Source of the DNA: Virgisporangium aliadipatigenens
Lineage (GTDB): Bacteria; Actinomycetota; Actinomycetes; Mycobacteriales; Micromonosporaceae
DNA length: 64,000 nt
Assembly (NCBI RefSeq): GCF_016863615.1
Contig: NZ_BOPF01000007.1
Location: 124,001-188,000 of the forward strand
Direction: 5' to 3'
Shown here piece by piece: positions 3,722 to 41,739 of the stretch; positions within the stretch are counted from its first letter, which is position 1; every line of letters starts with the position of its first letter. The notes beneath the pieces are model-generated. The model searched no databases. It was not told the origin of the DNA and saw nothing but the letters and a program-made list of their open reading frames with translations. Position numbers and translations under genes: made by a program.

Positions 3722-3735
3722 CAGAGTCGACTCTG
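3722..3735. promoter_or_regulatory. perfect 14-bp palindrome, probable TetR operator
   Basis: CAGAGTCGACTCTG is perfectly self-complementary and sits midway between the divergent glycosyltransferase (ATG at 3683) and TetR (GTG at 3764) genes. For the TetR gene it overlaps a -35-like TCGACT (3727-3732), 18 bp from a TACGAT -10 box (3751-3756). That -10 box ends 7 bases before the GTG, so the TetR mRNA is likely leaderless. TetR proteins commonly bind such sites in shared intergenic regions. Confidence 0.6.
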
Positions 3736-3763
3736 GCGAACTGTAGCAAGTACGATCTTCGGC

Positions 3764-4381
3764 GTGCGCAAGCCCGTTCCGAGAGGTCGACGAGCCGAAT
3801 ACGCCCAGCACACCAGGCAGGCGATCGTGGAGGCCGCCCGCGCGCTGTTCATCGAGAAGGGCTACTTCGGCACGAAAGTCGAGGAGATCGCCCAGTCCGC
3901 GCGGGTCGCGCCGGCCACCGTGTACGCGGTCGGCGGCGGCAAGAACGGCCTGCTGCGCACGCTCATCGAGTCCGGCACCGGTGCCGAGGAGGTGCCGGTC
4001 ATCCTCGCCCGCATCGAGGAGTCCACCGACCCGGCGGACCTGATCCGCTTCATCGTGCGCGCCACCCGCGAGATGTTCGAGAAGTGGGCGGACCTCATGC
4101 GCCAGGTCGCCGCGGCCGCGCCGCAGGAGCCGACGGTCCGCGAGACCCAGCGGATCGCCCACGCCAGCATGCGCCACGGGCTGGCCCTGACCGCCCGGCG
4201 GCTGGCGACGCTCGACGCCCTGCGCGACGACGTCGACGTCGAGGCCGCCACCGACCTGCTCTGGCTGCACCTGTGCAACGCGGCGTACTTCATCCGGACC
4301 GACGACCTCGGGTGGTCGCTCGACCGCTCCGAGGCGTGGCTCAACGAGGCGCTTCCCCCGGCGCTGCTGCGCCGGCCGTAG
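3764..4381 (+). CDS. TetR/AcrR family regulator
   Basis: 205-residue repressor. The N-terminal helix-turn-helix spans about residues 12-60: QHTRQAIVEAARALFIEKGY, then KVEEIAQSARVAPATVYAVGG. The rest is the helical ligand and dimer domain. The GTG at 3764 was chosen over an ATG at 3707 because the earlier start would place 19 unrelated residues in front of VRKPVPRGRR and would run through the operator-like palindrome. Its stop codon abuts that of the convergent PucR gene with no spare base. Likely regulates itself and the divergent glycosyltransferase. Confidence 0.88.
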   Translation: MRKPVPRGRRAEYAQHTRQAIVEAARALFIEKGYFGTKVEEIAQSARVAPATVYAVGGGKNGLLRTLIESGTGAEEVPVILARIEESTDPADLIRFIVRATREMFEKWADLMRQVAAAAPQEPTVRETQRIAHASMRHGLALTARRLATLDALRDDVDVEAATDLLWLHLCNAAYFIRTDDLGWSLDRSEAWLNEALPPALLRRP

Positions 4382-9099: not shown

Positions 9100-12000
9100 C
9101 AAGCGACCTTGGGGGTCGCGCGGACACCGAGGTGCATGTACCGCTCGCCGGTGGCGAGGGTGTAGAAGGTGACCGGGATCCAGGTCCGCATGGTGGGCAG
9201 CCGCACCACGTACATGTCCTCGTGGACGGCGACCATCGGCAGCTCCCGGGTCGGCTCCGGTTGCAGCGCGGCCAGTTCGCCGGTGACGGTGATCCGCAGG
9301 AGCGGGCCGTCGGCGTTGTCGAGCACCTCGAGGCGCTGGCTCGCCCGCTCGTAGGTGCCGGCCCGCTCGCCGAGCGACACCTCGACGGGAACCTCCGGCG
9401 GTTCGATCGGTTTCGGCTTCGCCACGCCCGCCAGCTCCGCGAAGATCTCGGTGTACAGGTCCTCGTACAGGTCGTGCGAGTTGTCGCCGTTGGTCAGCAG
9501 GCACACCGCGAAGCCCTGCCCCGGGATCATCTCGAAGTACGCCGACTGGCCGATGGTGTTGCCGCCGTGGCCGACGAGCCGGGTGCCGTCCCACTCGGAG
9601 CGGGCCCAGCCGATTCCCCACGAGTCGCCGAGCGTGTACCGCTCCGGCAGGTCCACCTGGTGGGAGAGCATCGCGGCCACGCTCTCCGCGCTCAGGACGC
9701 GGGTGCCGTCCGCCGCCAGGCCGCCCGTCAGATGCATCCGGGCGAACGCCAACACGTCGCTCACCGTCGAGGTGATGAGCCCGGCCGGTCCCGCCGAACG
9801 CGGGATGCCCCAGACCGGCGCGCGCACCGGTTCGTCGGCGCCGGGCGGCGACACGTGCCCGCAGGCGGCCAGGTGCAGCAGCGCCTCCTCGGGCAGCGTG
9901 ACCGTCTTGGCGAGGCCGAGCGGCTCGAAGATGCGCGTGCGCAGCGCCTCGTCGTAGGTGCCGCCGGTCAGCACCTCGACGATCCGCCCGGCAAGGGTGA
10001 ACCCGGAGTTGCAGTAGGACCAGGTGGCGCCGAGCGGGTGGTTCTGCGCGACGTTCACCAGCGCCGCCACGTACTTCTCGACGGCGTCGTCGCCCCGGCC
10101 GGTGTCGGTGAACACGTCGCCGTCGATGCCGCTGGTGTGGGTGAGCAGGTGTCGCACGGTGACCTGCTTGGTCAGGTCCGGGTCGGACAGGCGCAGGTCC
10201 GGCAGGTAGTCGGAGACCGGCGCGTCGAGGTCCAGTTTGCCTTGGTCGACCAGTTGCATGATGAGCGTCGCGGTCCAGACCTTCGTGTTCGAACCGATCT
10301 GGAACAGCGAGTCGGGTGTCGCCGCGACGCCGGTGTCCTTGTTCAGGACGCCGTAGGCGACGGCGATCTGCTCGTCCGGCTCGCCGACCCGCAGGATGCC
10401 GAGCGCCGCGCCGGGAACCTTGTACCGCGCGGCGAGCGTGTCCAGCCGGCGCTGCCAGTGCCCGGCGTCGATCGCCGGGCGGCCGGAGCCGGTGTGCTGG
10501 GTGACCCACTCGACGGTGCGGCGGTTCCAGTCGCGCCGGTGCGACGGCCGGCCGTCCAGGATGAACGCGTGCGGCGCGTCCGGGTACAGCACCAGACGGG
10601 TCGGCACGCCGCGGGCCCGCAGCGCGGTGTGCCACTGCTGGGCCTGTCCGACCGGACACGTGGCGTCGTCGGTGCCGTGCAGGATGAGCGTCGGCGTGCG
10701 CACACTGTCCACATGGGACAGTGGTGCCATGGCCGCGTAGCGCTCGGGGTCCTCGGCCCGGGCCGCGCCGAACACCAGCGACGAGAAGAGGTGCCCGTCC
10801 TCGGCCGTTCCGGCGAAGCTCTCCAGGTCCACCAGCACGCCACCGGCGACGGCCGCGGCGAACCGGTCGTCGACGCCGGTGAGGTAGCAGGTCATGTAGC
10901 CGCCGTAGCTGTAGCCCGTGACGGCCAGCCGCTCCGGGTCGGCGAGCCCCTCGGCGACCAGTGCGTCGACGGGTTCCAGGAGGTCCTTCGCGTCGACGAG
11001 TCCCCACCCGCCCACGGTGGCCGTGAAGAACTCCTCGCCGTAGCCGTCGCTGGCGCGCGGGTTCAGCAGCAGCACCGTCCAGCCGCGCGAGACCAGTTCG
11101 TCGTGGTAGCGGTGGATCTCGTCGGCGGCGCCGTTCCAGGCGTTGTGCGGGCCGCCGTGGATGTCCAGCAGCAGCGGTCCGGCCCCTTCGCGCGCCGGGT
11201 CGCGCACGACCCAGCCGTGCACCGTGGTGCCGTCGGAGACCGTGAACTCCCGTTCGACCCGCCGGAACGGTTGTGCCGCACCGGTTCCGTACGAGGTGCG
11301 CGCGCGCTCGGCGCCGGTTTCCAGGTCCAGCACCACGATGTCGCCGAACGACTCCGGCGTGCTCAGCACGACCGCGATCCGTTCGCCCGCCGCCGACAGT
11401 CCGCTGACCACCCGGCCGGCGCCGGTGAGCACCGGGCGGATCTCCCCGCCGTCGGCCGGCACCGCGAACACGTGCGTGCAGCCGCGGTCGCGGGCGCAGA
11501 AGACGAGTGTGCCGCCGTCGCCCGCGAGCTGCGGCAGCCCGCCGGGATAGCCCGGCCCGCCCGGCATCACGTTGCGGTCGAACGTCTCGGTGAGTTCGCG
11601 CGTGCTTCCACCGTTCACCCGGGAAGTGAAGATCCTGGAGTGACCGATCGCGGCGGCGAGCGTGCCGACGGAGAGGACGGAATCCCCGTCGGACGACCAG
11701 AGCGCCGGTCCGGCGAACCCGTCCTGCGGACCGACCGGGCGCGGGACGGCGAACGGATCGGTGACGTCGACGACCTGGGTGCCGCCGCGCAGCGTCAGGT
11801 CGGCGTCGGCGCCGATGCTGGCCGGGAACGCGAGCCGGGTCCCGTCCGGCGACCAGGTGGGGGCGCCGGCGTGCCAGTCGCCGGCGGTCACCTGGCGGCA
11901 CTCGCCGGTCGCGAGGTCCAGCACGTGCAGGTGGGTGCGCAGGTCGCCGAAGAAGCCGGTGCCGTCCGCGTGGTACGCGAGCCGGTCGGTGACGATCGGC

Positions 12001-29872: not shown

Positions 29873-29946
29873 GGGGTCCTCCTGTCGTCCGGGGGGTGTG
29901 CGCTGGCTCACAGACTGCGGCTTCGTGGACCCCGACCCTAGCGGCC

Positions 29947-29965
29947 GTCCCGCTCAGCGGGACTC
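29947..29965. promoter_or_regulatory. palindromic site A, probable IclR operator at the cupin/FMO promoter
   Basis: GTCCCGCTCAGCGGGACTC contains 8-bp arms (GTCCCGCT/AGCGGGAC) around one base. On the minus strand it overlaps the expected -35 region of a TAGGGT -10 box (29936-29941) that serves the cupin/monooxygenase unit. It matches site B at 30715-30733 in 18 of 19 bases. Confidence 0.55.
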
Positions 29966-29970
29966 GAATG

Positions 29971-30735
29971 TTACCGGCTTGTGTACGCGCGGGACGCGGC
30001 CGCGGCGGCCAGCCGCACCGCCGGACCCGCCCGGTCGGCGCGCACCAGGGCGGTCGGCCCGGTCACCGAGACGGCGGCCACCACCCCGCCGAGCGGTCCG
30101 AAGATCGGCGCGGCGACGCAGGAGATCCCGATGTTGCCCTCTTCGCGCTCGACGGCCAACCCCCGGTCCGGGATGGCGGCCAGCTCGCGGCGCAGCGCGG
30201 TGGCGGTGGTGAGCGTGCGCGGCGTGCGCTTCTCCAGGCCGGCGTCGATCACCTGCTGCACCGTGGCGTCGTCGCTGTAGGCCAGGATGGCCCGCCCGAG
30301 GGCCGAACAGTGCGCCGGCAGGAGCGCTCCCACCTGGGACAGCATCGGCATCGGCCGGTGTCCGGTGATCTTGTCGACGAGCAGCACCTGGGTGCCGCTG
30401 AGCACGCCGAGCTGCACCGTCGTGCGGGTGGCGTTGTAGAGGTCCTGCAGGAACGGCAGCGCCGCCTCGCGCAGTTCGTGGCGGACCGGCACCAGGCCGG
30501 AGATCTCGAAGAGCCGGTTGCCGATCCGGTAGCGGTCGGCCGGCTTGTCCAGCCAGCCCAGCTCGATCATCTTGGTGGCGGTGCGGTGCGTGGTCGAACG
30601 CGGCAGCCCGCAGCGCGTCACGAGCGCCGCGAGCGTCAACTCGCGATGGTGCTCGTCGAACGCCCCGAGGATCGCCGCGGCGCGGTCCAGTCCGCCCAGC
30701 CCCGCCGAACCGGTGTCCCGCTCACCGGGACTCAC
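29971..30735 (-). CDS. IclR family transcriptional regulator
   Basis: 254 residues. N-terminal winged helix at about residues 14-75 (LDRAAAILGAFDEHHRELTL, then RCGLPRSTTHRTATKMIELG), followed by the IclR GAF-like ligand domain (QLGVLSGTQVLLVDKITGH; HCSALGRAILAY; GNIGISCVAAPIFG). IclR proteins often bind aromatic-acid effectors. GTG start. Divergent from the SDR-cupin-hydrolase-dioxygenase operon with a 9-bp inverted repeat between. A near-identical palindrome lies in its own first codons and at the cupin/FMO promoter, so it probably controls all three units. Confidence 0.88.
   Translation of the reverse strand: MSPGERDTGSAGLGGLDRAAAILGAFDEHHRELTLAALVTRCGLPRSTTHRTATKMIELGWLDKPADRYRIGNRLFEISGLVPVRHELREAALPFLQDLYNATRTTVQLGVLSGTQVLLVDKITGHRPMPMLSQVGALLPAHCSALGRAILAYSDDATVQQVIDAGLEKRTPRTLTTATALRRELAAIPDRGLAVEREEGNIGISCVAAPIFGPLGGVVAAVSVTGPTALVRADRAGPAVRLAAAAASRAYTSR
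30715..30733. promoter_or_regulatory. palindromic site B, inside the first codons of the IclR gene
   Basis: GTCCCGCTCACCGGGACTC, 6-bp arms around CTCAC, differs from site A at one base of 19. It covers codons 1-7 of the IclR gene, a position suited to autoregulation by road-block. Confidence 0.5.
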
Positions 30736-30749
30736 GGTATGGCCCGTCG

Positions 30750-30780
30750 TGTCATGGCAGTCAGGCTAACCGCCATGACA
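30750..30780. promoter_or_regulatory. 9-bp perfect inverted repeat over the SDR start codon
   Basis: TGTCATGGC (30750-30758) and GCCATGACA (30772-30780) are exact reverse complements, 13 bases apart. The right arm contains the ATG of the SDR gene (30775-30777), and the whole element sits between the divergent IclR and SDR starts. It may be a second regulator site or an mRNA hairpin. Confidence 0.5.
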
Positions 30781-31521
30781 ACCGCTCTGGTCGGTGGCGG
30801 CGCGACCGGCATCGGCTTCGCGACCGCGGAGTGCCTCGCCCACGCCGGCCATCGCGTGGTGCTGTTCGGCCGCCGCGAAGAGGCCCTCGCGAAGGCCGCC
30901 GCGCTGCTGCCCGGCGACGTGCACACGGTCGTCGGCGACGTCTCCGACCTGGATTCCACCCCACGCATCCTCCACGAGGCCGGTCCGGTCGACGTCCTCG
31001 TGCTCAACGCCGGCGGCCCGCCGCCGGGGCGCATCCTCGACGTCGACGACGATCGCTGGCAGGCGGCGTTCGACCTGCTGCTGCGCGGGCCGCTGAAGCT
31101 CGCGCGGCTGGCGCTGCCGCCGATGGCCGAGAACGGCTTCGGCCGGGTCGTCTTCGTCACCTCCACGGCGGTCCGCCAGCCGCAGCCGGACCTGGCCGCC
31201 TCCGTGGTGCTGCGGGCGGCCGTGACGAGCGCGGCGAAGCTGCTCTCCCGGGAGTTCGCCGGGCTGGGCGTGACGGTCAACTGCGTGGCGCCCGGCCCCA
31301 CGGCCACCGACCGCCGGCGCGACATTCTCGCCGCGCGGGCCCGCCGCAGCGGTGCGTCGTTCGACGACGTGGACGCCGCCGACGTGGCCGTGGTGCCGGC
31401 CGGGCGGGCCGGTCGCCCGGAGGAGATCGGCGCGGCCGTCGCCTTTCTCGCCTCGCCTGCCGCAAGCTACGTCAACGGGACCGTGCTCACGGTCGACGGC
31501 GGAAGAACGGAGACCCCGTAA
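30775..31521 (+). CDS. atypical SDR family oxidoreductase
   Basis: 248 residues with the short-chain dehydrogenase fold: TTALVGGGATGIGFATAE cofactor loop, VVGDVSDL, VLNAGGPPPG, VNCVAPGPTATDR and VNGTVLTVDGG. The catalytic region reads TSTAVRQPQPDLAASVVLRA, so the usual Tyr of YxxxK is Leu and the Lys position is Arg. A known subgroup lacks this Tyr, so it may use other chemistry or be non-reductive. First gene of the upper aromatic operon; its stop overlaps the next ATG by one base (TAATG). Confidence 0.85.
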   Translation: MTTALVGGGATGIGFATAECLAHAGHRVVLFGRREEALAKAAALLPGDVHTVVGDVSDLDSTPRILHEAGPVDVLVLNAGGPPPGRILDVDDDRWQAAFDLLLRGPLKLARLALPPMAENGFGRVVFVTSTAVRQPQPDLAASVVLRAAVTSAAKLLSREFAGLGVTVNCVAPGPTATDRRRDILAARARRSGASFDDVDAADVAVVPAGRAGRPEEIGAAVAFLASPAASYVNGTVLTVDGGRTETP

Positions 31522-32024
31522 TGGCGCAGGCCGGGCCTGACTTCAGCATGGCCGAGTTCCTCGGCGCGATCTCCGCGGTGGTGCGGCCGAGTGCCGCCCG
31601 CCCGATCGTGGTGCACGACCATGAGTTGGAACGCCTTCCGGCCGCGCAGGTGCACAACCCCACCGAGCTGCGCATCGCCGGCAAGCTGCCCACCAGCACG
31701 TTCGAGATCTTCCGGCAGACCATCCCGCCGGGGCTCAGCTCGGACATGCAGCGGCACTACCACGAGACCGTGCACTACGTCATCTCCGGCCGGGGGCACA
31801 CCGAGGTCGAGGACGACGTCGAGGAGTGGGCCACGGGGGCGTTCGTCTACACGCCGCCGTGGACCTGGCACCGGCACTACAACGACAGCGCGGACGAGCC
31901 GGTCGAGTTCCTCACCATCGAGAACTCCCGCCTGCTGAGCCTCTTCGGCGTCGCCCGCCGCCAGAGTGCCGGGCTGTCCACAGTGGAGGAAGCGCGGAAC
32001 CGCTTCAAGGAGGAGCACTCATGA
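31521..32024 (+). CDS. cupin domain dioxygenase-like protein
   Basis: 167 residues. Cupin motif 1 is RHYHETVHYVISGRGHTEVE with several His and a Glu, and motif 2 is GAFVYTPPWTWHRHYN. It resembles cupins next to ring-cleavage genes, sometimes related to gentisate 1,2-dioxygenase half-domains. Cytosolic. Translationally coupled on both sides (TAATG before, ATGA after). Role in the aromatic operon is unknown; it may act on a ring intermediate or bind it. Confidence 0.8.
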   Translation: MAQAGPDFSMAEFLGAISAVVRPSAARPIVVHDHELERLPAAQVHNPTELRIAGKLPTSTFEIFRQTIPPGLSSDMQRHYHETVHYVISGRGHTEVEDDVEEWATGAFVYTPPWTWHRHYNDSADEPVEFLTIENSRLLSLFGVARRQSAGLSTVEEARNRFKEEHS

Positions 32025-32911
32025 CGGGGATCCCCGAGCACATCAGCATCTGGGCCGAACTGTCCACAGTGGACCACGAACTGCGCCACGTGGACGTGCC
32101 GCTGGGCGGTGCCGTCGTGCGCACCCGGGTCCTGCGGGCCGGGGCGGGGCCCGACCTGGTCCTGCTGCACGGCACCGGCGGTCACCTGGAGGCGTACGCG
32201 CGGGACATCGCCGGCCTGGCGCGGGACTTCCGCGTGACGGCCTACGACATGGTCGGCCACGGCTGGTCGGACACGCCGGACCGGCCGTACACCATCGACG
32301 TTCTCGCGGATCATCTGATCGGTCTGCTGGACGCGCTCGGCATCGAGCGGGCGCACCTGTCGGGGGAGTCCCTGGGGGGTTGGGTCGTCGCCTGGACGGC
32401 CGCCCACCACCCCGCGCGGGTCGACCGCCTGGTCCTCAACACCCCCGGGAACATCGCGAACAAGCCCGAGGTGATGGCCCGGATGCGCGACAGCACCATG
32501 GCCGCCGTCACCGACCCCAGCGACGCGACGGTCCGGCGGCGGGTGGAGTTTCTCTTCCACCACAAGGAAATGGTCACCGACGAACTGGTGAACCTGCGCC
32601 GCGCCGTCTACAGCCGACCCGGCTTCGTGCGCGCCATCACCAACACGCTCGTGCTCCAGGACCCGGTGGTGCGCAAGGACTTCGCCTGGCGCCGCGAGTG
32701 GGTGTCCACAGTGGCGGCGCCGACGCTGCTGCTGTGGACCGAACACGACCCGACCGGCGGGCTGGACGAGGCGGCGCTGCTGCTGGAGTGGCTGCCCGAC
32801 GCGCGCCTGCACGTGATCGCCGACGCCGGCCACTGGCCGCAGTGGGAGAAGGTCGACGAGTACCTGAACGCCCACCGCGACTGGCTCCTGCTGGGGAAGG
32901 ATCCCTCGTGA
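32021..32911 (+). CDS. meta-cleavage product hydrolase (alpha/beta hydrolase, MhpC/BphD-like)
   Basis: 296 residues. Oxyanion region LLHGTGGHLEAYARDI, nucleophile Ser in GESLGGW, acidic residue in LLWTEHDPTG and His in IADAGHWPQWE complete the triad. Enzymes of this type hydrolyse the C-C bond of the ring-fission product to 2-hydroxypenta-2,4-dienoate plus a carboxylic acid. It lies directly before the extradiol dioxygenase gene (GTGA overlap), so the two consecutive steps are co-translated. Contains two TCCACAGTGG words (32063, 32705). Confidence 0.9.
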   Translation: MTGIPEHISIWAELSTVDHELRHVDVPLGGAVVRTRVLRAGAGPDLVLLHGTGGHLEAYARDIAGLARDFRVTAYDMVGHGWSDTPDRPYTIDVLADHLIGLLDALGIERAHLSGESLGGWVVAWTAAHHPARVDRLVLNTPGNIANKPEVMARMRDSTMAAVTDPSDATVRRRVEFLFHHKEMVTDELVNLRRAVYSRPGFVRAITNTLVLQDPVVRKDFAWRREWVSTVAAPTLLLWTEHDPTGGLDEAALLLEWLPDARLHVIADAGHWPQWEKVDEYLNAHRDWLLLGKDPS

Positions 32912-33837
32912 CGGAGATTCTCGGTTTCGTGGGGATGTCGCACTCGCCGTTCGCGACGCTGCTGCCGCCGGCGGCGGTCGGCGAGCCGGGCGGCGCGTTC
33001 CTGGCCGACGCGGCGCGCGTGGCGAACGCCGTGCGCGCCCTCGCCCCCGACGCGCTGGTCGTCATCGGCCCCGACCACTTCCACGCGAACTTCTACGACC
33101 AGATGCCGCCGTTCGTCCTGGGGGTGGAGGAGGCGACCGGCTTCGGCGACTTCGGCAGCACGGCGGGGCCGTTGCCGGTCGCCTCGGGACTGGCGTGGGC
33201 GGTGCGCGACGGATTGACCGACGCGGGGTTCGACGTGTCGCTGTCGTACTCGCTGACCGTGGACCACGGCGTGGTGCAGTCCTACGAGATGGCCGGCGGG
33301 GCGGGGATCCCGGTGGTGCCCTTCGTGCTGAACACCGCCGCCCCGCCGCTGCCCTCCCTGGCCCGCTGCGTGGCGCTGGGGCAGGCGCTCGGCGCCGCGA
33401 TCCGCCGCGCACCCGGCGCGGGCCGCGTGCTCGTGGTGGCCAGCGGCGGCCTGTCCCACTGGCTCCCCTCGAACGACCCCCGCGACCCGTCGGTCGTGGG
33501 CGAACGCCGCGACTCGCTGATCCACGGGCGCAAGGACGCGCGGGCGTTCGCGGCGGTGCGGGAGCCCCGGGTGCGCGCGATGGCCGGCAATCCGGACGCC
33601 CGGGTCAACGCCGACTGGGACCGGTGGTTCCTGCGGCAGCTGCGCACCCTCGACCTCGAACCGATCGTCGCGCTGGGCCACGAGAAGCTGGAACACGAGG
33701 CCGGCAGCGGCGGGCACGAGGTGCGGGCGTGGCTCGTGGGGCACGCGGCCGTCGGCCTGCCCCTGGTGTGGGACAGCTACGAGCCGGTCCCGGAGTGGAT
33801 CACCGGCATGGGCATCGGCACCACGTTCCCGGTGTAG
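32908..33837 (+). CDS. class III extradiol ring-cleavage dioxygenase (LigB/MhpB-like)
   Basis: 309 residues. Iron and catalytic motifs of the LigB superfamily are visible: GMSHSP, VIGPDHFHANF, LTVDHGVVQSYEM and SGGLSHWLPSNDP. The length and order match 2,3-dihydroxyphenylpropionate 1,2-dioxygenase. It opens a catechol-type ring next to the hydroxyls to give the substrate of the adjacent hydrolase. Last gene of the upper operon. The true catechol is unknown; a phenylpropionate-like or other side-chain catechol is plausible. Confidence 0.9.
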   Translation: MTEILGFVGMSHSPFATLLPPAAVGEPGGAFLADAARVANAVRALAPDALVVIGPDHFHANFYDQMPPFVLGVEEATGFGDFGSTAGPLPVASGLAWAVRDGLTDAGFDVSLSYSLTVDHGVVQSYEMAGGAGIPVVPFVLNTAAPPLPSLARCVALGQALGAAIRRAPGAGRVLVVASGGLSHWLPSNDPRDPSVVGERRDSLIHGRKDARAFAAVREPRVRAMAGNPDARVNADWDRWFLRQLRTLDLEPIVALGHEKLEHEAGSGGHEVRAWLVGHAAVGLPLVWDSYEPVPEWITGMGIGTTFPV

Positions 33838-33844
33838 GGCGGGT

Positions 33845-34420
33845 TCACAGCTTGCCCGTCGTGCGGCGCACGCGGTGTCCCAGGTGCGCGCCGACGTCCG
33901 CGACGAACGACGGGGCGAGCGGCGGCCAGTTCCAGAACTCCAGCGCCAGGTTGCCGAAGGCCCACGGCAGGTCGTCCCACGCCCAGTCGTTCATCGCGAC
34001 GAACGCTCCACAGTGGACACACGCGAACCCGTCCGACGCGCCGCGGTGCCACTCGTCCACGGCGTCCCAGAAGCGGCTCCACTGCGCCGATGGGCCGTCG
34101 TCGTCGCTCCGGTCGGCGACGTGGCAGTGCGGGCAGGCGACGCGGTAGACGTCGGGGCCGGCGAAGAAGACGGTGCGACCGGTGACGACGCGCAGGCCGT
34201 TCGTGCGCAGGCGGGTGAAGAGGCGGTCGTCGGGCTCGGTGACGACGGTGCGCCAGCGGGCACCGGGGGCGTGGCCGAAGGGCTCGCCGAGCACGCAGTC
34301 CGACGGCGTCGCGACGACGATCTGCGCCGCGACGAGCCGGGCGAGGAGCGTGTGCCCGAGTTCCGCCGCCTCCGCGGCCGTGGCGTCGAGGTCGACGATC
34401 TTCTGGAACGACTCACCCAC
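33845..34420 (-). CDS. zinc-ribbon-containing protein of unknown function
   Basis: 191 residues. Two Cys pairs, ACPHCHV and FACVHCGAF, about 40 residues apart look like a split zinc ribbon. The C-terminus is Trp-rich (NDWAWDDLPWAFGNLALEFW). GTG at 34418-34420 has TACGCT six bases upstream, a leaderless start. No membrane segment. It is divergent from the 59-residue peptide gene and only 7 bases from the dioxygenase stop. Family not recognised. Confidence 0.65.
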   Translation of the reverse strand: MGESFQKIVDLDATAAEAAELGHTLLARLVAAQIVVATPSDCVLGEPFGHAPGARWRTVVTEPDDRLFTRLRTNGLRVVTGRTVFFAGPDVYRVACPHCHVADRSDDDGPSAQWSRFWDAVDEWHRGASDGFACVHCGAFVAMNDWAWDDLPWAFGNLALEFWNWPPLAPSFVADVGAHLGHRVRRTTGKL

Positions 34421-34533
34421 GGCCGGAGCGTATCGAGGTGTGCGTCCCGCCGCCGGCCGGCGCATTGCTCGCATTTCGGCGAAAACAGGTTCGCGTCCCG
34501 GTAGCTTCGGTAGTAGTCAGCGGTCGGTCAGAC

Positions 34534-34546
34534 GAAAGGACGACAC
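34534..34546 (+). promoter_or_regulatory. ribosome site of the 59-residue peptide gene
   Basis: GAAAGGA at 34534-34540 lies six bases before the GTG at 34547, a normal spacing that decides this otherwise inconspicuous start. TAGCTT near 34502-34507 is a possible -10 box upstream. Confidence 0.5.
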
Positions 34547-34726
34547 GTGGCAGTCACCATCGACACCGTCACCATCGACGCCAAACCGCCCCGCACCGTC
34601 CGGCAGCCGGAGGAGTACCGGCCGCCCATGATCGAGGCGCTCGGCTCCCTGCGCAAGCTCACCAAGGGCGCCGGGCCCGGTGGCATGCCGATCGTGATGC
34701 AGACGGGCGGAATCCCCGGCATGTGA
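34547..34726 (+). CDS. putative RiPP precursor peptide with lasso-type leader motif
   Basis: 59-residue peptide, GTG start, TGA at 34724-34726. The middle carries Y24-xx-P27-x5-G33-x4-L38-T39-x-G41 (EYRPPMIEALGSLRKLTKG), the leader pattern that lasso-peptide precursors present to their RRE recognition domain. The tail after Gly41 is AGPGGMPIVMQTGGIPGM: Gly, Pro and Met rich, without Cys, Asp or Glu. The first 20 residues (TIDTVTIDAKPPRTVRQ) are polar. No lasso cyclase or protease is nearby; the adjacent convergent gene is a DUF692/MNIO-type enzyme, a family known to modify peptide precursors. A pairing is therefore plausible but not shown. Chance coding is unlikely because the motif is exact and the ribosome site is good. 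Confidence 0.65.
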   Translation: MAVTIDTVTIDAKPPRTVRQPEEYRPPMIEALGSLRKLTKGAGPGGMPIVMQTGGIPGM

Positions 34727-34734
34727 CCGTCGCC

Positions 34735-34801
34735 GGCCGCGGGTCACCATCCCCGCGGCCGAGCGATCCGGCCGGCCCTCGCCCGCGAACGGGGGCCGGC
34801 C
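34735..34801. terminator. two hairpins between the peptide and MNIO genes
   Basis: GGCCGCGGG (34735-34743) pairs with CCCGCGGCC (34752-34760), and GGCCGGCCC (34770-34778) pairs with GGGCCGGCC (34793-34801). One likely ends each of the two convergent transcripts. Confidence 0.55.
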
Positions 34802-34804
34802 GCC

Positions 34805-36370
34805 TCAGTCTCCGGTGCAGCAGCGCGCCGAACCGCACTCCACGGGACCGGTCTCGTCCGCCTGCACCGCCACGACGCCGCCGCTGCGGCCGAAGCGCCC
34901 GTCGCCCAGGTAGGCCAGCGTCACCTTCGCGCGGAACCCCTCCGGTGAACCGTCCACTTCGGACAGACCCTCGATCGCGGCGTCGATGTCGACGCCCCAG
35001 TGGCGTTCCGGCGCGACCGGCTCGTCGGCGACGCAGGCGTTCATCCACGACTCGCAGTCGAGCAACTCCTGCAGCAGTGGCGTGTCCGGCAGCAGCGAAC
35101 GCATCGCGCGGGCCGCCGTCGCCGCGCTCAGCGGGGCCGTCCCGTCCAGGGTGGCGATGAGGCGGTCGTGGAGGCGTTCGACGCTCCAGCCGCGCAGCCG
35201 CTGGATCCAGCCGGCCGTGGCAGGGTAGTACGCCGCGATGCCGGTGCCGAGCGCGAGCAGTCTCGAGCGGCGGTCGTAGTCCCAGCGGCGGCGCTCGTTC
35301 ACCGCGAACACGTCGGCGAGGTCGGGGCCGGCGTGCACAAGGCGTTCCCCCGACAGTGGCCGATCGGAGTGCAGAACGTCGAACAGGCCCACGGACAGCG
35401 ACCGGACGCGGGCCCGGCTGCTCGTCAGGTCCGGCAACGGCGGCCGCGCGGGAACCACACCGGCCAGCCACGACGCGACCGACGGGCGGGAGCGTACGGC
35501 GGCGAGCCGCTGCAGCGCGCGCTCGGGACGGCGGGCGCCGAACAGCTCCAGCGCGATCGCCCGCAGGTGCGGCGCCGTTTCGACGACCTCGTCGATGAGG
35601 TCGAGACAGACCGACACGACGTCGTGATCGCCGTGGTCGTCGTGATACACGAAACCCTCGCGCACCAGGTCGATCCGGCCGCCCGCGAAGTGGATCTCGG
35701 TAACGCTGTCCCAGGGGAGGCGGTGCAGGTCCGCGGTCGGCGAGGCGCCGCGCGCCACCTGGTAGCTGAGCACGTGGCCGACGTCGACGCACATGCCGCA
35801 GCCGGTCGCCTCGCAGAGCCGCGCGAAGAAGTCGAACGCGTGCATGTCCCCGGCCACGTACGTCATCGGCGGGAACTCCGCGTTGAACGGCCGGCCGAGC
35901 ACCTCCTGCACGAAGCGGATGTTCGCCGTCGCGACGACCAGCGTCTCGGCGGTCAGCGGCAGCGGCATGAAGTGCGGGTAGACGTGCCGTTCGCTCATCA
36001 GCCACACGCCGAGGTCCTCGGTGACCCACGGCGCGTCGGCGATCGTGAGCAGCTCGCGCAGTTCCGTCAGATCGTCTTCGGTAGGCGGTTGTGCGTATAC
36101 CGGATTCACATTGGTGCTGTGCACCAGGACGGTCGCCGCGCCGGCCAGCTCCCGCACGCCGCGCCGCCGGAAGCCGGCCGCCTCCCGCTCCGCGCGTTCG
36201 TGCGCGCGCAGGTACGGTGCCGGACCGCGGTGGCGGGAACTCGGCGCGGTGATCTCGAAGAAGTCGACAGCCCCGTCGGCCAGGTACGCGGGGTGGAAAT
36301 CCGCCGGGTTGACGCCGACGCCGAGGCCCTTCAGGGGAACGTCGCGGAAGTAGTCCGGTCCGAAGTCCAT
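34805..36370 (-). CDS. DUF692/MNIO-type multinuclear iron oxidase-like protein with extra C-terminal domain
   Basis: 521 residues, far longer than ordinary DUF692 proteins (about 280-300). The N-terminal 290 residues follow the TIM-barrel MNIO pattern: GLGVGVNPADFHP, FFEITAPS (E39), VLVHSTNVN (H84), WVTEDLG (E118/D119), FNAEF (E165), CVDVGH (D196, H199), EIHFAGG (H227) and YHDDHGDHD. These are the expected iron ligands of MbnB/TglH-like enzymes. Residues about 300-521 are an unrecognised, mostly helical domain ending in a Cys-rich tail (CGSARCC). The ATG at 36368-36370 follows TAGAGT by six bases (leaderless). It converges with the peptide gene; likely a RiPP-modifying enzyme. Confidence 0.75.
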   Translation of the reverse strand: MDFGPDYFRDVPLKGLGVGVNPADFHPAYLADGAVDFFEITAPSSRHRGPAPYLRAHERAEREAAGFRRRGVRELAGAATVLVHSTNVNPVYAQPPTEDDLTELRELLTIADAPWVTEDLGVWLMSERHVYPHFMPLPLTAETLVVATANIRFVQEVLGRPFNAEFPPMTYVAGDMHAFDFFARLCEATGCGMCVDVGHVLSYQVARGASPTADLHRLPWDSVTEIHFAGGRIDLVREGFVYHDDHGDHDVVSVCLDLIDEVVETAPHLRAIALELFGARRPERALQRLAAVRSRPSVASWLAGVVPARPPLPDLTSSRARVRSLSVGLFDVLHSDRPLSGERLVHAGPDLADVFAVNERRRWDYDRRSRLLALGTGIAAYYPATAGWIQRLRGWSVERLHDRLIATLDGTAPLSAATAARAMRSLLPDTPLLQELLDCESWMNACVADEPVAPERHWGVDIDAAIEGLSEVDGSPEGFRAKVTLAYLGDGRFGRSGGVVAVQADETGPVECGSARCCTGD

Positions 36371-36386
36371 CAAAACACTCTAAACT

Positions 36387-36400
36387 GGACATGCCTGTCC
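36387..36400. promoter_or_regulatory. inverted repeat upstream of the MNIO gene
   Basis: GGACA (36387-36391) and TGTCC (36396-36400) flank TGCC, immediately upstream of the leaderless TAGAGT box of the MNIO gene. Candidate operator; the regulator is unknown. Confidence 0.35.
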
Positions 36401-36465
36401 GGCTCCGGAAATGCCCGGTGCCGGGAGCGCCCTCGCGGCAGCTCCCGGCACCGGCGGTCCCCGCG

Positions 36466-38055
36466 TCAGGCGTACGTCTCGAACTCCGCCACCTTCGGCG
36501 TGCCGGTCGCGCTCGTGATCTCGAACGTGACCTTCTTCAGCGACGTGCGCGGGATCGTGACGGCGGCACCCGCGCCGCTGCCGGAGGCGAGCACCGCGCC
36601 GGTGTCCCCGTTGAGGACCCGCCACGCGCCGATGGTGCCGGCCGAGCCGGACGCCTCACGGATGGCGATGGAGCCCACCGTCGTCGCCGAGCCCCACTTG
36701 ATCGAGATCGAACCGGTGCTGCCGCTCGGCGACCAGATCGTGCCGAGGCTGCCGTCCTTGACGTTGCCGTAGCTGGTGCCGCTCGCCTTGCTCGAACCGT
36801 CCGCGCCCGCGCCGGAGGCGAGGCTTAGGTTGCTGCCGGAGGGCTGGCTCGGGCCGGCCGAGGGCGGCGGGCTGCTCGGCGCCGGACTGCTCGGCCGCGG
36901 GCTCGACGGGCCGGCGGTGGGACCGGTCGTGGGGCCCTGGGTCACCGCGCAGGTGCCGGTCGACGTCTTCAGGCCGGTCCTGTCGCCGGCCGTCTGGCGC
37001 ACGATGTTCGGCACGCAGGAGGCGCTGTCGAGCGTGAACGCATACGGAATACTGACGGTCGTGTTCGACGTCGGATTCGGTCCGGCCGGGTTGTTCTCGC
37101 TGCCGGGCGCGGACCAGGTGACGTTGTCGAAGACGTTCCCGCCGACCTGCCAGTAGCCGGCCGCGTCGGTGTAGAAGGTGCCGAGGACGTCCTTGGAGTC
37201 CTCGAAGTAGTTGTTGTCCACCTTGGCCTTCGCGCCGGCGCGGGAGTTGATCCCGGACTCGTTCAGGTTCAGGTAGTGGTTGTTGTACATGTGCGCCACG
37301 CCGCCGCGCAACAGGGGCGTCCGCGAGTCGATGTTCTCGTACAGGTTGTGGTGGAACGTCACGAAGCCGTTGGACGTGTCACTCTCGCTGGAGCCGATCA
37401 GCCCGCCGCGCCCGGAGTTGCGCAGCGTGCTGTAGGAGAGCGTGACGTACTGCGTGTCGTCCTTCATGTCGAACAGCCCGTCGTAGCCCGCGTCCTCGCC
37501 GCCGGAGGCCAGCAGCGTGGCGTGGTCGACCCAGACGTTGCGCACCGTGCTCTCCATGCCGATGGCGTCGCCGCCGTTGGAGGTGGGGGAGCCGGACTTC
37601 TTGACGTTCTGCACGGTGACGTTCTGGACGATGATGTTGCTGGAATCGCGGATGTGGATGCCCAGTTGGTCGAAGACCGCACCGTTGCCCACGCCGACGA
37701 TGGTGACGTTGCTGATCTCCTTGAGTTCGATCCGGTCGGCGGCGGTGTTGCAGCCGGCGCCGGAGACCTTCGTCGTGTTGCCGTGGTTGATGGTGCCCTC
37801 GACCTGGATGATGATCGGCGTGCTGCTGCTGGCCCGGTTGCACAGGGCGGTGTGGATCGCCGTGCCGGTGGTGGCGCGCACGGTCGCACCGCCGGCCCCG
37901 CCGGTGGTGCCGCCGTTCACGGACGCGAAGCCGGTGGCTCCGGCCGCCGCCGCGGACGCCTCCGGAATCGACAGCGCGACGCCGACGGTGGCCGCGACGG
38001 CCGTCCCGGCGACCGCGACCGCGATCTGGAGCCGTCGTGCGACTGGTTTCCTCAT
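36466..38055 (-). CDS. secreted pectate lyase (PL1) with C-terminal discoidin-like domain
   Basis: 529 residues. Signal peptide with Arg-rich start and hydrophobic stretch, cut near SIPEASA-A. The PL1 parallel beta-helix spans about residues 40-340 with VWVDHAT, DMKDDTQYVTLSYS and RTPLLRGGVAHMYNNHY, the conserved substrate and calcium-binding motifs. A Pro/Ser-rich linker (about 360-400) joins an F5/8-type carbohydrate-binding-like domain. It splits polygalacturonate by beta-elimination outside the cell. Ribosome site AGGTAGG. A LacI-type palindrome sits at the transcription start. Confidence 0.92.
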   Translation of the reverse strand: MRKPVARRLQIAVAVAGTAVAATVGVALSIPEASAAAAGATGFASVNGGTTGGAGGATVRATTGTAIHTALCNRASSSTPIIIQVEGTINHGNTTKVSGAGCNTAADRIELKEISNVTIVGVGNGAVFDQLGIHIRDSSNIIVQNVTVQNVKKSGSPTSNGGDAIGMESTVRNVWVDHATLLASGGEDAGYDGLFDMKDDTQYVTLSYSTLRNSGRGGLIGSSESDTSNGFVTFHHNLYENIDSRTPLLRGGVAHMYNNHYLNLNESGINSRAGAKAKVDNNYFEDSKDVLGTFYTDAAGYWQVGGNVFDNVTWSAPGSENNPAGPNPTSNTTVSIPYAFTLDSASCVPNIVRQTAGDRTGLKTSTGTCAVTQGPTTGPTAGPSSPRPSSPAPSSPPPSAGPSQPSGSNLSLASGAGADGSSKASGTSYGNVKDGSLGTIWSPSGSTGSISIKWGSATTVGSIAIREASGSAGTIGAWRVLNGDTGAVLASGSGAGAAVTIPRTSLKKVTFEITSATGTPKVAEFETYA

Positions 38056-38094
38056 CTCGCCTACCTTTGCCTGGGGTCCGGAAAGCATGGAGGG

Positions 38095-38147
38095 GGAAAG
38101 CGCTTTCCTTGCCCGGCAGGCTAGGCGGATCTCGACCGGTGCGGCAA
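38095..38147 (-). promoter_or_regulatory. pectate lyase promoter with LacI-type operator
   Basis: On the minus strand, TTGCCG (38142-38147) and TAGCCT (38118-38123) are 18 bp apart. Just downstream of the -10 box lies the perfect 14-bp palindrome GGAAAGCGCTTTCC (38095-38108), the central-CG form bound by LacI/GalR-family regulators. Its position at about +10 to +23 suits repression by road-block and relief by a pectin-derived sugar. Confidence 0.65.
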
Positions 38148-38185
38148 GATCGCGCCCGTTTCGAGGTGGTATGCCGTGAAATCTT

Positions 38186-39187
38186 TCAGGAAGTTTTGAG
38201 ATCCAGGGCGATGTCCACGAGCAGGTCCTCCTGACCGCCCACCAGCCGCCGCCGTCCCGCTTCGGCGAGGATCGATCGCACGTCCACCCCGTACCGCCGC
38301 GCGGCGACCTCCGCGTGCCGCAGGAACGACGAGTACACCCCGAAGTACCCCAGCGTCAGCGTCTCCCGGTCCACCCGCACCGGCCGGTCCTGCAACGGCC
38401 GCACCAGATCGTCGGCGGCGTCCTGCAGGGCGAACAGGTCGCAGCCGTGCTCCCACCCGGACAGGTTCGCCACGGCCACGAACGCCTCGATCGGCGTGTT
38501 GCCCGCACCGGCCCCGTGCCCGGCGAGCGAGGCGTCGACCCGCGTCACGCCCTCCTCGACGGCCACGACGGAGTTCGCCACGGACAGCGACAGGTTCTCG
38601 TGCGCGTGGATGCCGACCTCGGTCGCCGGGTCGAGCGCGTCGCGGTAGGCGCGCACGCGGTCGCGGACGCCGTTCATGGTGAGCCGCCCGCCGGAGTCCG
38701 TCACGTACACGCAGTGCGCCCCGAACGACTCCATCAGCTTCGCCTGGGCGGCCAGTTCCTTCGCCTCGGCGAGGTGCGACATCATCAGGAAGCCGGCCAC
38801 GTCCATGCCGAGCCCGCGCGCCGTCGCGATGTGCTGCGCGGCGACGTCCGCCTCGGTGCAGTGCGTGGCGACCCGCACCGAACGCACCCCGAGCGCGTGC
38901 GCCGCCCGCAGGTCCCGCACGGTGCCGATCCCGGGCAGCAGCAACGTGGTCAGCCGCGCGCGGGTGCACGCGGCCGCGGCGGCCTCGATCCAGGCGGCGT
39001 CGGCGTGACTGCCCGGCCCGTAGGTGAGCGAACCCCCGGCGAGCCCGTCGCCGTGCGCCACCTCGATGCCGTCCACGCCGGCGGCGTCGAGCGCGGCGAC
39101 GATGCGCGTGACGTCGGCCGGTGCGATGCGGTGCGAAACGGCGTGCATCCCGTCCCGCAGCGTCACGTCCTGGACGAAGAGTTTCAT
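38186..39187 (-). CDS. mhpE: 4-hydroxy-2-oxovalerate aldolase
   Basis: 333 residues, HMGL-like TIM barrel that splits 4-hydroxy-2-oxovalerate into pyruvate and acetaldehyde. Motifs: [53 protein letters not shown] and [14 protein letters not shown] with metal-binding His residues, and [20 protein letters not shown]. It pairs with the acetaldehyde dehydrogenase encoded just upstream (ATGA overlap), which channels the toxic aldehyde. Last gene of the lower operon. The mhpE name is given by role; it is equally close to DmpG-type enzymes. Confidence 0.92.
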
Positions 39188-40110
39188 GCGTCGGCCATCC
39201 GTTCCGCCACCCGCAGGGCGGCCGCCGTCATGATGTCGAGGTTGCCGGCGTACGCGGGCAGGTAGTGCGCGGCACCCTCGACCTCCAGGAACACCGTCAC
39301 CTGATGGGTGGGCGCCGTGCGGTTGCCGGGATGCAGCAGGGTGTCGACCGGCGCCTCGATCGGCGTGATCTGGACCTCCTGCTTGAGCCGGTAGCCCGGC
39401 ACGTAGGAGGCGACGGTGTCGACCATCGCGTGCACCGACTTGCGGATCGCGGCGTGCACCACCGGGGACGGGTCGTCGATGAGGGCGAACACCGTGTCGC
39501 GCATGACGAGCGGCGGTTCGGCCGGGTTGAGCACGATGACGGCCTTGCCGCGACGGGCGCCCCCGACCGACTCCACCGCCCGCGCGGTCGTCTCGGTGAA
39601 CTCGTCGATGTTGGCCCGCGTTCCCGGACCGGCCGAACGGGACGCGATCGACGCGACGATCTCCGCGTACACCACGGGCGTGATCCGCGAGACGGCAGCC
39701 ACGATCGGCACGGTCGCCTGTCCGCCGCAGGTCACCATGTTGAGGTTGCGCGCGTCCAGGTGCGCGTCCAGGTTGACGGCGGGCACCACGAACGGCCCGA
39801 TCGCCGCCGGCGTCAGGTCGACCAGCCGCACGTGGGTGTCCGCGAGCGCGGCGGCGTTCTCCTTGTGCGCGGCCGCCGACGTCGCGTCGAGCACGATGCG
39901 GATGTCGTCGAAGTGCGACATGGCGACGAGCCCGCCGATGCCCTCGGCCGTGGTCGGAACGCCGAGCCGGCCGGCCCGCGCGAGCCCGTCCGAGGCGGGG
40001 TCGATGCCGACCATCGCACCCATCTCCAGGACGTCGGAGCGGCGCAGCACCTTGAACATGAGGTCGGTGCCGATGTTGCCCGACCCGATGACCGCGACCT
40101 TCGTCCTCAT
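39184..40110 (-). CDS. mhpF: acetaldehyde dehydrogenase (acylating)
   Basis: 308 residues. N-terminal NAD-binding [18 protein letters not shown], the catalytic Cys in [13 protein letters not shown], and [16 protein letters not shown] and [17 protein letters not shown] typical of DmpF/MhpF enzymes. It converts acetaldehyde, NAD+ and CoA to acetyl-CoA and forms a channelling complex with the aldolase. Coupled by 4-base overlaps to both neighbours. Length is normal. Confidence 0.92.
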
Positions 40111-40934
40111 CGGACACCCCGCGCGCCGTCGTCCGCCGCCGGCGCGAAGGCCGTGGCGACCTCGCCGATGCCGGAAAGCGTGGCAGTGACCCGCATTCCG
40201 GGCCGGACCGGCACCATGGGCCCGAGCGCGCCGGAGAGCACCACCTGTCCGGCGCGCAGCGGGTCGCCCAGGTCCCGCGCCGCCCGGGCCAGCCACGCCA
40301 GGGCGGCGAGCGGATCCCCGAGGCACGCCTTCCCCGAACCCTTCGAGACGACCTCCCCGTCGACCACCATCTCCATGACGGTGTCCACGGGCTCCACAGT
40401 GGACAGTGTGACCGAGGTGGTGCCGAGCACGAACAGCCCGCTGGAGGCGTTGTCCGCGATGGTGTCCGCGATGCGGATGTCCCACCCGGCGATCCGGCTG
40501 TCCACGATCTCCAGCGCCGGCACCAGGTACTCCACCGCGTCGCGCACCTGGGCCGGGCCGAGGTCGCCGTCGTGCAGGTCCGCCCCGAGCACGAACGCCA
40601 CCTCCGCCTCGATGCGCGGCTGGAGCAGGCGTCCGGTCGGGACGAGGGCGAGCGCGCTGACGTCCATGTCGTCGAAGAGCACGCCGAAGTCGGGGCGGTC
40701 GACACCCAGCTGCGCCTGTACGGCCGGCGCGGTCAGCCCGATCTTGTGCCCGACGACGCGGGCGCCGCCGCGCAGCCGTTCCTCGGTCAGGTGGCGCTGT
40801 ACCGCGTAGGCGACGTCGATGTCGTCGGCGCCGATGAGGTCGCGCACCGGGGGACAGGCGGTCACGTCGCGGGCGGCGTCGCGCAGGCGCCGCGCCGCGT
40901 GGACGACCGGCCCGTGCTCGGAGGTGGAAGTCAT
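40107..40934 (-). CDS. mhpD: 2-keto-4-pentenoate hydratase
   Basis: 275 residues of the fumarylacetoacetase-like hydratase fold. [32 protein letters not shown] and [21 protein letters not shown] contain the metal-binding Glu and Asp residues. It hydrates 2-hydroxypenta-2,4-dienoate to 4-hydroxy-2-oxovalerate, the step between the upper operon hydrolase and the aldolase. First gene of the lower operon; ATG at 40932-40934 (a GTG three codons upstream is possible). An IclR-type palindrome lies about 45 bases upstream. Confidence 0.91.
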
Positions 40935-40978
40935 GGCGCCCACCCTGCCGTCCGGCCGGTCCGGTGCTCCAGCGCGAA

Positions 40979-40990
40979 GTTCCGCGGAAC
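40979..40990. promoter_or_regulatory. perfect 12-bp palindrome, probable IclR operator
   Basis: GTTCCGCGGAAC lies between the IclR stop (40996) and the hydratase start (40934), in the expected promoter of the lower meta-cleavage operon. Its left part GTTCCGCGG recurs at 41796-41804 in front of the IclR gene. Sites with TTCCG...CGGAA halves are typical for actinobacterial IclR regulators. Confidence 0.55.
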
Positions 40991-40995
40991 GGAAC

Positions 40996-41739
40996 TCACT
41001 CCAGGAGCCCTTGCCGGCGCGCGAGCGTGGCGGCGATCCCGGCCGCGGCGGCCTTCACCGCGGTCGCGTGCTTCTGCGGCTGGAACCGCGTCACCGGCCC
41101 CGCCACGCTGACCGCCGCGACGGCGAGATCCCGTCGGTCGAGCACCGGTGCGCCCACGCACACGATCCCGACGGCGGACTCCTCGAACTCGAACGTGACG
41201 CCCTTCTCCACCGCCTCGTCGAGCTGTCCCCGCAGGATGCGCGGCGCGGTGATGGTCCGCGGCGCCAGCCGGGCCAGCGGCCCCTTCAGGAACGACGTGC
41301 GCACCGCCGCCGGCGCGAAAGCCAGCAGCGCCTTGCCGATCGCCGTCGCGTGCAACGGCATCCGCCCGCCGAGCCGGGACGGCGCCTTCGCCTGCCGGTG
41401 CCCGCCCATCTTCGCCACGTACACCACCTCGGCGCCCTCGCGCAGTCCCAAGTGGACGGTCTCGTGGGTGCGCTCGTACAGGTCCTCCAGGAACGGCGTC
41501 GCCACCTCGATGAGCCCGCGTTCGACCGAGGCCCGCATCCCCAACTGGAACAGGTGCCCGCTCAGGTGGAACTTCCCGTCGACCCGGTCGAGCAGCCGCG
41601 CGGCGACCAGCTCGGCGGTGAGCCGGTGCAGCGTCGCCTTCGCGAGCCCGGTGCGCCGCTGCAGTTCGGCGAAGCCCACGCCGCGGTCGTCGGCCGTGAA
41701 CGCGTCCAGGATCGCCGACACCTTCGCGATGACGCTCAC
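40996..41739 (-). CDS. IclR family transcriptional regulator
   Basis: 247 residues. Winged helix at about 4-65 (AKVSAILDAFTADDRGVGFA, then RRTGLAKATLHRLTAELVAA), then a GAF-like effector domain (HLGLREGAEVVYVAKMGGHR; HATAIGKALLAF; ESAVGIVCVGAPVLD). GTG at 41737-41739 has TATGGT six bases upstream, a leaderless start. It sits just upstream of, and in the same direction as, the hydratase-dehydrogenase-aldolase operon with an IclR-like palindrome between, so it most likely controls that operon. Confidence 0.9.
   Translation of the reverse strand: MSVIAKVSAILDAFTADDRGVGFAELQRRTGLAKATLHRLTAELVAARLLDRVDGKFHLSGHLFQLGMRASVERGLIEVATPFLEDLYERTHETVHLGLREGAEVVYVAKMGGHRQAKAPSRLGGRMPLHATAIGKALLAFAPAAVRTSFLKGPLARLAPRTITAPRILRGQLDEAVEKGVTFEFEESAVGIVCVGAPVLDRRDLAVAAVSVAGPVTRFQPQKHATAVKAAAAGIAATLARRQGLLE

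Follow-up and report, generated by a model that had tools for sequence, protein, structure and literature searches.

A Cys-free peptide with a lasso-type leader beside an MNIO enzyme in Virgisporangium aliadipatigenens, a probable detached arm of a split RiPP cluster

This report concerns a short peptide gene and the enzyme gene that it faces in a 64,000-nucleotide stretch of the Virgisporangium aliadipatigenens genome (hereafter the window). The peptide, of 59 residues, joins a lasso-type leader, YRPPMIEALGSLRKLTKG, to a Cys-free core that terminates in TGGIPGM, and the enzyme belongs to the MNIO (DUF692) family. We consider it probable that together they form a detached tailoring arm in a ribosomally synthesized and post-translationally modified peptide (RiPP) system of actinobacteria that lacks a cyclase and resembles the linear polyphosphorylated peptides (LPPs) of Bacillota, that the cluster of this system is split over the genome, and that the MNIO oxidizes the TGG(G)IPG segment of the core. 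This reading builds on a precursor family and an enzyme family, on a locus in Jidongwangia harbinensis where all of the parts are linked, on the co-occurrence of the two arms across genomes, and on loci that give no match to a lasso cyclase or B2 protein. Papers are cited by PubMed Central number.

The preliminary description of the window had picked out the peptide gene, from the letters alone, as a hidden, GTG-started RiPP precursor with an exact Y-x2-P-x5-G-x4-LT-x-G leader, and on both points it was right. The pattern is exact in the 59-mer; a six-frame search of the window returns it a single time, and in 100 Markov resamples it appeared 0.01 times on average and at most once. The NCBIfam profile NF033521 (lasso_leader_L3) scores the peptide at 22.6 bits, above its curated cut-off of 19, and the site is the top NF033521 match in the whole 10.3-Mb genome (E 0.0013), where the second and only other match above the cut-off lies on contig C25; among 14 control genomes, seven gave hits when E values of up to 10 were admitted, and none gave one above the cut-off. 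In addition, a profile of the six other family units described below, with the window's own unit left out, retrieves the 59-mer at E 1.5e-18. The resamples, the control genomes and the left-out profile together rule out a chance open reading frame (ORF). A tblastn search of a plasmid collection with the 59-mer gave no match at E up to 1. The peptide and enzyme genes converge, 78 bp apart, and the window core is free not only of Cys but also of Asp, Asn and Phe.

Two members of the precursor family lie within 2 kb of the two closest relatives of the enzyme. In Pseudosporangium ferrugineum (locus L029) a family peptide is encoded at 11641-11826 (+), 86 bp after the MNIO gene, and in Jidongwangia harbinensis (L031) a tandem precursor of two leader-core units lies at about 7876-8151 (+), some 1.9 kb before the MNIO gene. 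The preliminary description had made its case depend on a frame conserved at the protein level, and the retention of the peptide beside both relatives shows such conservation. Further members lie away from any MNIO gene, on contig C72 of V. aliadipatigenens itself (L045 9819-10025), on contig C4 of Pseudosporangium (L061 near 8993) and on contig C24 of Jidongwangia (L064 near 7956, minus strand); taken singly, the C24 peptide scores 18.7 bits against NF033521, below the cut-off of 19. When the seven units are aligned (window, L029, the two L031 tandem units, C72, L061 and L064), 12 columns are invariant, in window numbering Y24, P27, L32, G33, L35, L38, T39, G41, G43, P44, G46 and T53, and of these G43, P44, G46 and T53 fall within the core. 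Most of the leaders read YxPPxxxxLGSLxxLTxG, the core motif is G[AS]GPxG, and the C72 precursor carries the shared stretch LTKGAGPGGxPIVMQTG. Nei-Gojobori estimates over 34 codons, in segments chosen for their conservation, put the nonsynonymous rate (dN) below the synonymous rate (dS) in 21 of 21 pairs, by a bare difference for the window against L061 (dN 0.40, dS 0.42).

The end of the core divides the family. A TGG(G)IPG end is present in three of the seven units, all of them MNIO-linked, and is missing from the other four, among them the leading unit in the Jidongwangia tandem, a gene that holds both core types. Because this end is confined to MNIO-linked units, the alignment, small as the sample is, points to TGG(G)IPG as the likely target of the MNIO.

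The convergent neighbour had been described as an MNIO/DUF692 protein, and PF05114 confirms it at 102 bits (cut-off 25, E 4.3e-29). The protein reaches no NCBIfam equivalog cut-off for a characterized MNIO (bits obtained/required: BufB 85/310, HvfB 52.2/360, ApyH 47.9/400, ChrH 20.5/600, MbnB 16.8/325). An AlphaFold2 model of the whole enzyme from a five-row alignment is of moderate confidence (pLDDT 69); with this model Foldseek returned TglH (8hci_B) first, at E 1.4e-12, and MbnB complexes among the first ten. As modelled, the barrel is of the TIM-barrel fold and nearest to TglH and MbnB, and the O2-dependent oxidation with two or three bound irons that marks the superfamily is predicted for it. 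Full-length matches to the enzyme were found in none of 60 close relatives, 24 of which gave partial matches, and the V. aliadipatigenens genome stood alone among 397 genomes of an order-level sample (E 1e-20) and among 394 of a class-level sample (E 1e-50). A scan of genome contigs returned four relatives, from P. ferrugineum (64% identity), J. harbinensis (65%), Streptomyces bambusae (L030, 58%) and Streptomyces sp. ADI95-17 (L032, 48%), the first two being Micromonosporaceae according to NCBI. In the search of the plasmid collection with the enzyme, one of 268 records was full-length (L028, S. europaeiscabiei, 48%), and two more relatives, G789 and G817 at 49-50%, came from a search of 354 family genomes.

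The C-terminal part of the enzyme looks most like a partner protein. Modelled alone (229 residues, seven rows, pLDDT 77.7) and compared by Foldseek with 350,542 PDB chains, it returned TglI at ranks 1 and 2, with weak E values of 0.06 and 0.08, the next match standing at 0.88. VIA-align, run on Foldseek's own candidates, gave Z 8.7 for TglI, with a root-mean-square deviation (rmsd) of 9.6 over 161 residues, and Z 6.4 for NGO1945 (3dee; rmsd 3.3 over 108), a protein with a DUF2063-type RiPP recognition element (RRE). Because this blind search returned the partner of the very enzyme that the N-terminal half resembles, we believe that the enzyme is probably a natural fusion of an MNIO and its partner, with a TglI-like C-terminus; binding of the leader by the C-terminal domain would fit such a fold. 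TglHI (PDB 8hci/8hi7) is thus the nearest likeness for both halves of the model, but it consists of two chains where a single chain is found here, and Cys is missing from the window peptide. The CC[ST]G[DEQ] tail (34808-34850, minus strand) is kept in all eight enzymes read, that of the window included, in a region where the model is of low confidence. The Pfam signature of DUF2063 is not in the enzyme, for which PF05114 is the sole family listed at E up to 1, and type 2 MNIO partners likewise are reported without that signature (PMC12452194). A profile search of the PDB with the C-terminal domain gave only matches judged meaningless. A fused MNIO does have precedent, since an artificial HvfB-HvfC fusion is active and exceeds the co-expressed pair in product formation (PMC13419390), and since two MNIOs, MovX and ChrH, reportedly extend beyond the barrel into an additional C-terminal domain of one and the same polypeptide (PMC13419390, PMC12636315), although the enzyme falls below the ChrH equivalog cut-off, as listed above.

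Table 1. Features of the precursor and enzyme genes (positions in the window)
Feature	Position	Strand	Basis
Precursor peptide gene, 59 aa	34547..34726	+	NF033521 above cut-off; profile of six homologues, window excluded, E 1.5e-18
AAAGG ribosome-binding-like site and 7-base spacer ahead of GTG start	34535..34546	+	Sequence, consensus judged by eye
Leader recognition motif Y-x2-P-x5-G-x4-LT-x-G	34616..34669	+	Sequence; NF033521 matched over residues 24-41
Core segment AGPGGMPIVMQTGGIPGM	34670..34723	+	Alignment of 7 precursor units
MNIO (DUF692) enzyme, 522 aa, TTG- or ATG-started	34805..36373	-	PF05114; model closest to TglH 8hci_B
C-terminal part of enzyme: predicted helical domain and beta-wing, TglI/DUF2063-RRE-like, conserved CC[ST]G[DEQ] tail	34808..35494	-	AlphaFold2 model, Foldseek, VIA

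The remaining parts of the system come into view at a second set of loci. On Jidongwangia contig C109, at L031, the genes run in the order ABC transporter, PqqD, P-loop protein, tandem precursor, NTP_transf_5, methyltransferase-like protein, MNIO, and a small gene that is cupin-like as judged by eye; the locus matches PqqD (PF05402) at 55.9 bits (cut-off 23.4), PF14907 at 84 bits (cut-off 31.2) and ABC_tran at 104 bits. Contig C72 of V. aliadipatigenens carries the same set minus the MNIO, together with its own precursor and an M28 peptidase, and its proteins are 59% (ABC), 49% (PqqD), 69% (P-loop), 49% (nucleotidyltransferase) and 54-57% (methyltransferase-like) identical to those of Jidongwangia; the C72 PqqD protein matches PF05402 at 54 bits, against the cut-off of 23.4, and this family has no match at the window locus. 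Contig C4 of Pseudosporangium likewise holds the set without an MNIO, with its own precursor and an M28 peptidase. Across the 354 family genomes, the P-loop protein is found in three (E 1e-40) and the MNIO in five (G000, G809, G813, G789 and G817), and the 65%-identity clade of the MNIO consists of the same three genomes as the P-loop protein. Matches in G809 and G813 coincide in their coordinates with those in Pseudosporangium and Jidongwangia. The chance that three random genomes fall within those five is about 1.4e-6, by a hand calculation that ignores relatedness, two of the three being one genus in the set. At E 0.01 the P-loop protein has no match in the S. bambusae and ADI95-17 genomes or in the S. 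europaeiscabiei plasmid record.

These loci change how the pair in the window is to be understood. The preliminary description took it as a peptide with its enzyme, which stands insofar as a real precursor lies beside a real MNIO; but the pair is probably not self-sufficient, for members of the precursor family elsewhere are accompanied by the RRE, P-loop and transporter set. We regard as rather unlikely a stand-alone two-gene RiPP, in which the fused MNIO alone would recognize and modify the 59-mer, housekeeping proteases and exporters would finish the job, and C72 would make a separate product. Such an arrangement would suit an enzyme that, as modelled, seems to carry its own partner or RRE-like domain, the presence of a separate precursor at each locus, and the reports that the MNIOs DybH and MovX function with no separate partner (PMC12636315). 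Against it stand Jidongwangia, where both arms are united and both core types stand in one tandem gene, and the P-loop protein and the MNIO clade sharing exactly the same three of 354 genomes.

The closest known counterpart of the split system is the LPPs of Bacillota, in which a similar cyclase-less core set yields linear, Ser-phosphorylated peptides, and which are stated to be restricted to that phylum (PMC13381572). The two have in common the lack of a cyclase, a YxxP leader, a discrete RRE, an NTP transferase and an MsbA-like (ABC) transporter, and the genomes of LPP producers may also hold a lasso cluster (PMC13381572), as is the case here. LPP sets further include an HprK-like kinase (PMC13381572), to which the P-loop protein is a distant candidate counterpart: the name HprK-like is given to it on account of 34% identity with a lasso-cluster protein from V. 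aliadipatigenens contig C12, which itself matches PF07475 (HprK) at 20.6 bits, below the cut-off of 33.3. In contrast, the LPP leader consensus, YxxPxVLxHQxIxFETxxS, is absent here, where the leaders follow the YxPP consensus given above, and LPP leaders are cut by an SpI-type peptidase (PMC13381572), of which none turned up when ORFs of the C72, C4 and C109 loci were scanned, a scan that did not take in all ORFs and was not extended to a genome search. The system also differs in its phylum, Actinomycetota, in its G[AS]GPxG core, and in the addition of MNIO, methyltransferase-like, and M28 peptidase or formyltransferase genes, and the text on LPPs mentions neither MNIO nor DUF692 (PMC13381572). 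By analogy, the system may work like an LPP with an added oxidizing arm, yet we do not class it as an LPP, given its different leader consensus and the lack of an SpI peptidase among those ORFs.

The leader invites comparison with lasso peptides, whose ring acid, an Asp or Glu, lies at core position 7-9. As the preliminary description had observed for a lasso cyclase, the window contig (C7) has no match to PF00733 (cyclase) or PF13471 (B2), and the same is true of C72, Jidongwangia C109, and Pseudosporangium C4 and C21; a lasso peptide made by these loci was therefore rejected. Production in trans by the C12 lasso cluster, with the MNIO as a tailoring enzyme, is most improbable. Besides the leader type, it has in its favour that matches to PqqD, to the cyclase family and to the B2 family are grouped at C12:169-176 kb. 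Against it, neither the window core nor the C72 core has an Asp or Glu at positions 7-9, although Glu occupies position 7 in the TGGGIPG cores of Pseudosporangium and Jidongwangia, and the Pseudosporangium genome holds the pair but has no B2 match above the cut-off. The same searches, made in the three genomes, placed a lasso-like set on Jidongwangia C24 near 510 kb, at a great distance from the precursor of that contig (C24:217.9 kb). Separately, contig C25 of V. aliadipatigenens (L065) has an asparagine-synthase-family gene at 3529-5325, followed immediately, at about 5385-5510, by a short reading frame whose leader is of lasso type, YTPPRLERYGNVGVLTAGG; this contig has no PF13471 match.

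More distant enzyme relatives lie in other surroundings. The four homologues at 48-50% identity (L028, L032, L073 and L074) share a set of ABC-F, MFS, YcaO, MBL hydrolase and MNIO genes, the L032 YcaO protein also having a nitroreductase domain. Mini-peptides ending in ANSRCQ are encoded in these clusters, at L028 7707-7820 (-), L032 7794-8003 (-), L073 12177-12347 (+) and L074 11742-11909 (+), and look like another RiPP family, perhaps with self-resistance. Because the sibling MNIOs share the YcaO set and the ANSRCQ peptide, the MNIO subfamily serves at least two RiPP-like systems. The occurrence of siblings in unrelated YcaO clusters, the convergent layout, the short core and the small number of genomes would also suit a decayed or moonlighting pair, that is, a relic precursor left from the C72 family beside an MNIO acting on some other substrate. 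We find this improbable, given that leader and core are strongly conserved and that the two closest enzyme relatives are also near such a peptide. On the S. europaeiscabiei plasmid, acyl-protein synthase and acyl-CoA reductase genes lie beside a 53-aa peptide with four FPFR repeats (L028 11629-14449).

The scheme that we infer for the detached arm, including the binding of the leader, the target residues, the action in trans and the order of the steps, would run as follows. The YxPP...LGSLxxLTxG leader would be bound by an RRE, be it the fused TglI-like domain, the PqqD-type protein of C72, or both. The MNIO would then oxidize the core, most likely within TGG(G)IPG, and the P-loop kinase-like protein, the nucleotidyltransferase and the methyltransferase-like protein of C72 would modify the same peptide in trans; the natural guess is that the invariant Thr of the core becomes phosphorylated or glycosylated. 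Finally, the C72 ABC transporter would export the peptide. As regards a leader protease, two of the clusters hold an M28 peptidase gene.

Several observations weigh against the detached-arm reading. The pair in the window is convergent and not an operon. The pairing is seen in three genomes only, and two of these are one genus in the genome set. The preliminary description had proposed looking for the peptide near homologues of the enzyme, and while it is there in the two closest relatives, five of the eight enzymes of the subfamily (the window's among the eight) have no precursor in the stretches searched, by a profile search of 16 sequences; these are S. bambusae (58%), in whose gaps a search by eye found none that convinced, and the four at 48-50%, which sit in the different, YcaO cluster. 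The C72 precursor taken singly reaches 13.8 bits, below the NF033521 cut-off. Pfam and NCBIfam do not recognize the P-loop protein as HprK, and a PDB profile search with it gave no relative, only matches judged meaningless. The methyltransferase assignments are below the Pfam cut-offs (16.6/27 and 18.9/21.2 bits), and the L031 and L061 PqqD proteins are below the NCBIfam lasso-PqqD cut-off. As for the fused partner, the TglI match is weak, as its Foldseek value and rmsd show, two radical SAM (TokK) chains reach Z 5.5-5.6, near the value of NGO1945, and the tool's own note warns that Z values of this size are often attained by helical models through chance or common arrangement.

The chemistry can be set against other known systems. 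The preliminary description had argued that a Cys-free peptide excludes thiol-based chemistry, which is sound, but Asp, Asn, Phe and homocitrulline are each known as the target of some MNIO (PMC11002830, PMC12257519, PMC13174530). Aminopyruvatides and biphenomycin-like RiPPs resemble the present case in that an MNIO acts on a non-Cys residue (PMC11002830, PMC12257519), but they employ separate partner proteins, and their targets are Asp or Phe, neither of which is in the window core. The lasso peptides paeninodin and pseudomycoidin have a tailoring set of kinase and nucleotidyltransferase (PMC8498205), whereas here the loci have no cyclase or B2 match, the window core no ring acid, and the peptide no C-terminal Ser. 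Our literature searches, whose coverage left out most subscription papers, found no paper that pairs a lasso-type leader with an MNIO, in agreement with the earlier remark that the combination was not known from characterized systems.

Further genes were seen around these loci. A 209-aa neighbour of the precursor (33845-34474, minus strand) was considered as a cluster member and rejected: it has no family above cut-off and no match in L028-L032, L045, L046 or L061-L065. A pectate lyase gene (PF00544, 36466-38088) adjoins the pair, which from translations alone lies between apparent halves of an aromatic meta-cleavage pathway (29896-41000), with SDR, cupin, hydrolase and dioxygenase genes on one side and aldolase and aldehyde dehydrogenase genes on the other. 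Formyltransferase genes lie beside the P-loop protein or a YxxP precursor at four loci (L063 7575-9398, L062 5984-7936, L029 11823-12713 and L064 6895-7725), identified by PF00551 in three and by 73-76% identity in L064. V. aliadipatigenens C34 and Jidongwangia C120 encode variant peptides whose leaders contain YVPP or YVRP and which have PKA[IL]G close to their end, and in the vicinity of the C34 P-loop gene an ORF for a small Cys-rich peptide lies next to MauE and S26 signal peptidase genes (L063 14640-16028). Near the C72 cluster are Wzz/ParA-type and CDP-alcohol phosphatidyltransferase genes (L045 3165-4685 and 1247-2725); LPP clusters are reported beside capsule loci (PMC13381572).

Whether these loci represent a new RiPP subclass of Micromonosporaceae, one of linear peptides with lasso-type leaders on which a split cluster, encoded partly in trans, places phosphate or sugar groups and which a natural MNIO-partner fusion additionally oxidizes at a Cys-free TGG(G)IPG, is in our view a question that could fall evenly either way. 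If it is true, an MNIO that oxidizes Gly, Thr, Ile or Pro would have a type of substrate outside the MNIO reactions met in the literature consulted. Cys is the target of many known MNIOs, which also depend on a partner protein encoded separately. A single-chain MNIO whose likely target core, that of the window, is free of Cys, Asp, Asn and Phe would extend the chemistry of the family, and its fused design should make it easy to assay. At the same time, the system would suggest that the LPP-like RiPPs with YxxP leaders, reported as restricted to Bacillota, have a counterpart in actinobacteria, and that the genes for such a system can lie scattered in a genome, in which case the oxidizing arm escapes genome mining that works cluster by cluster.

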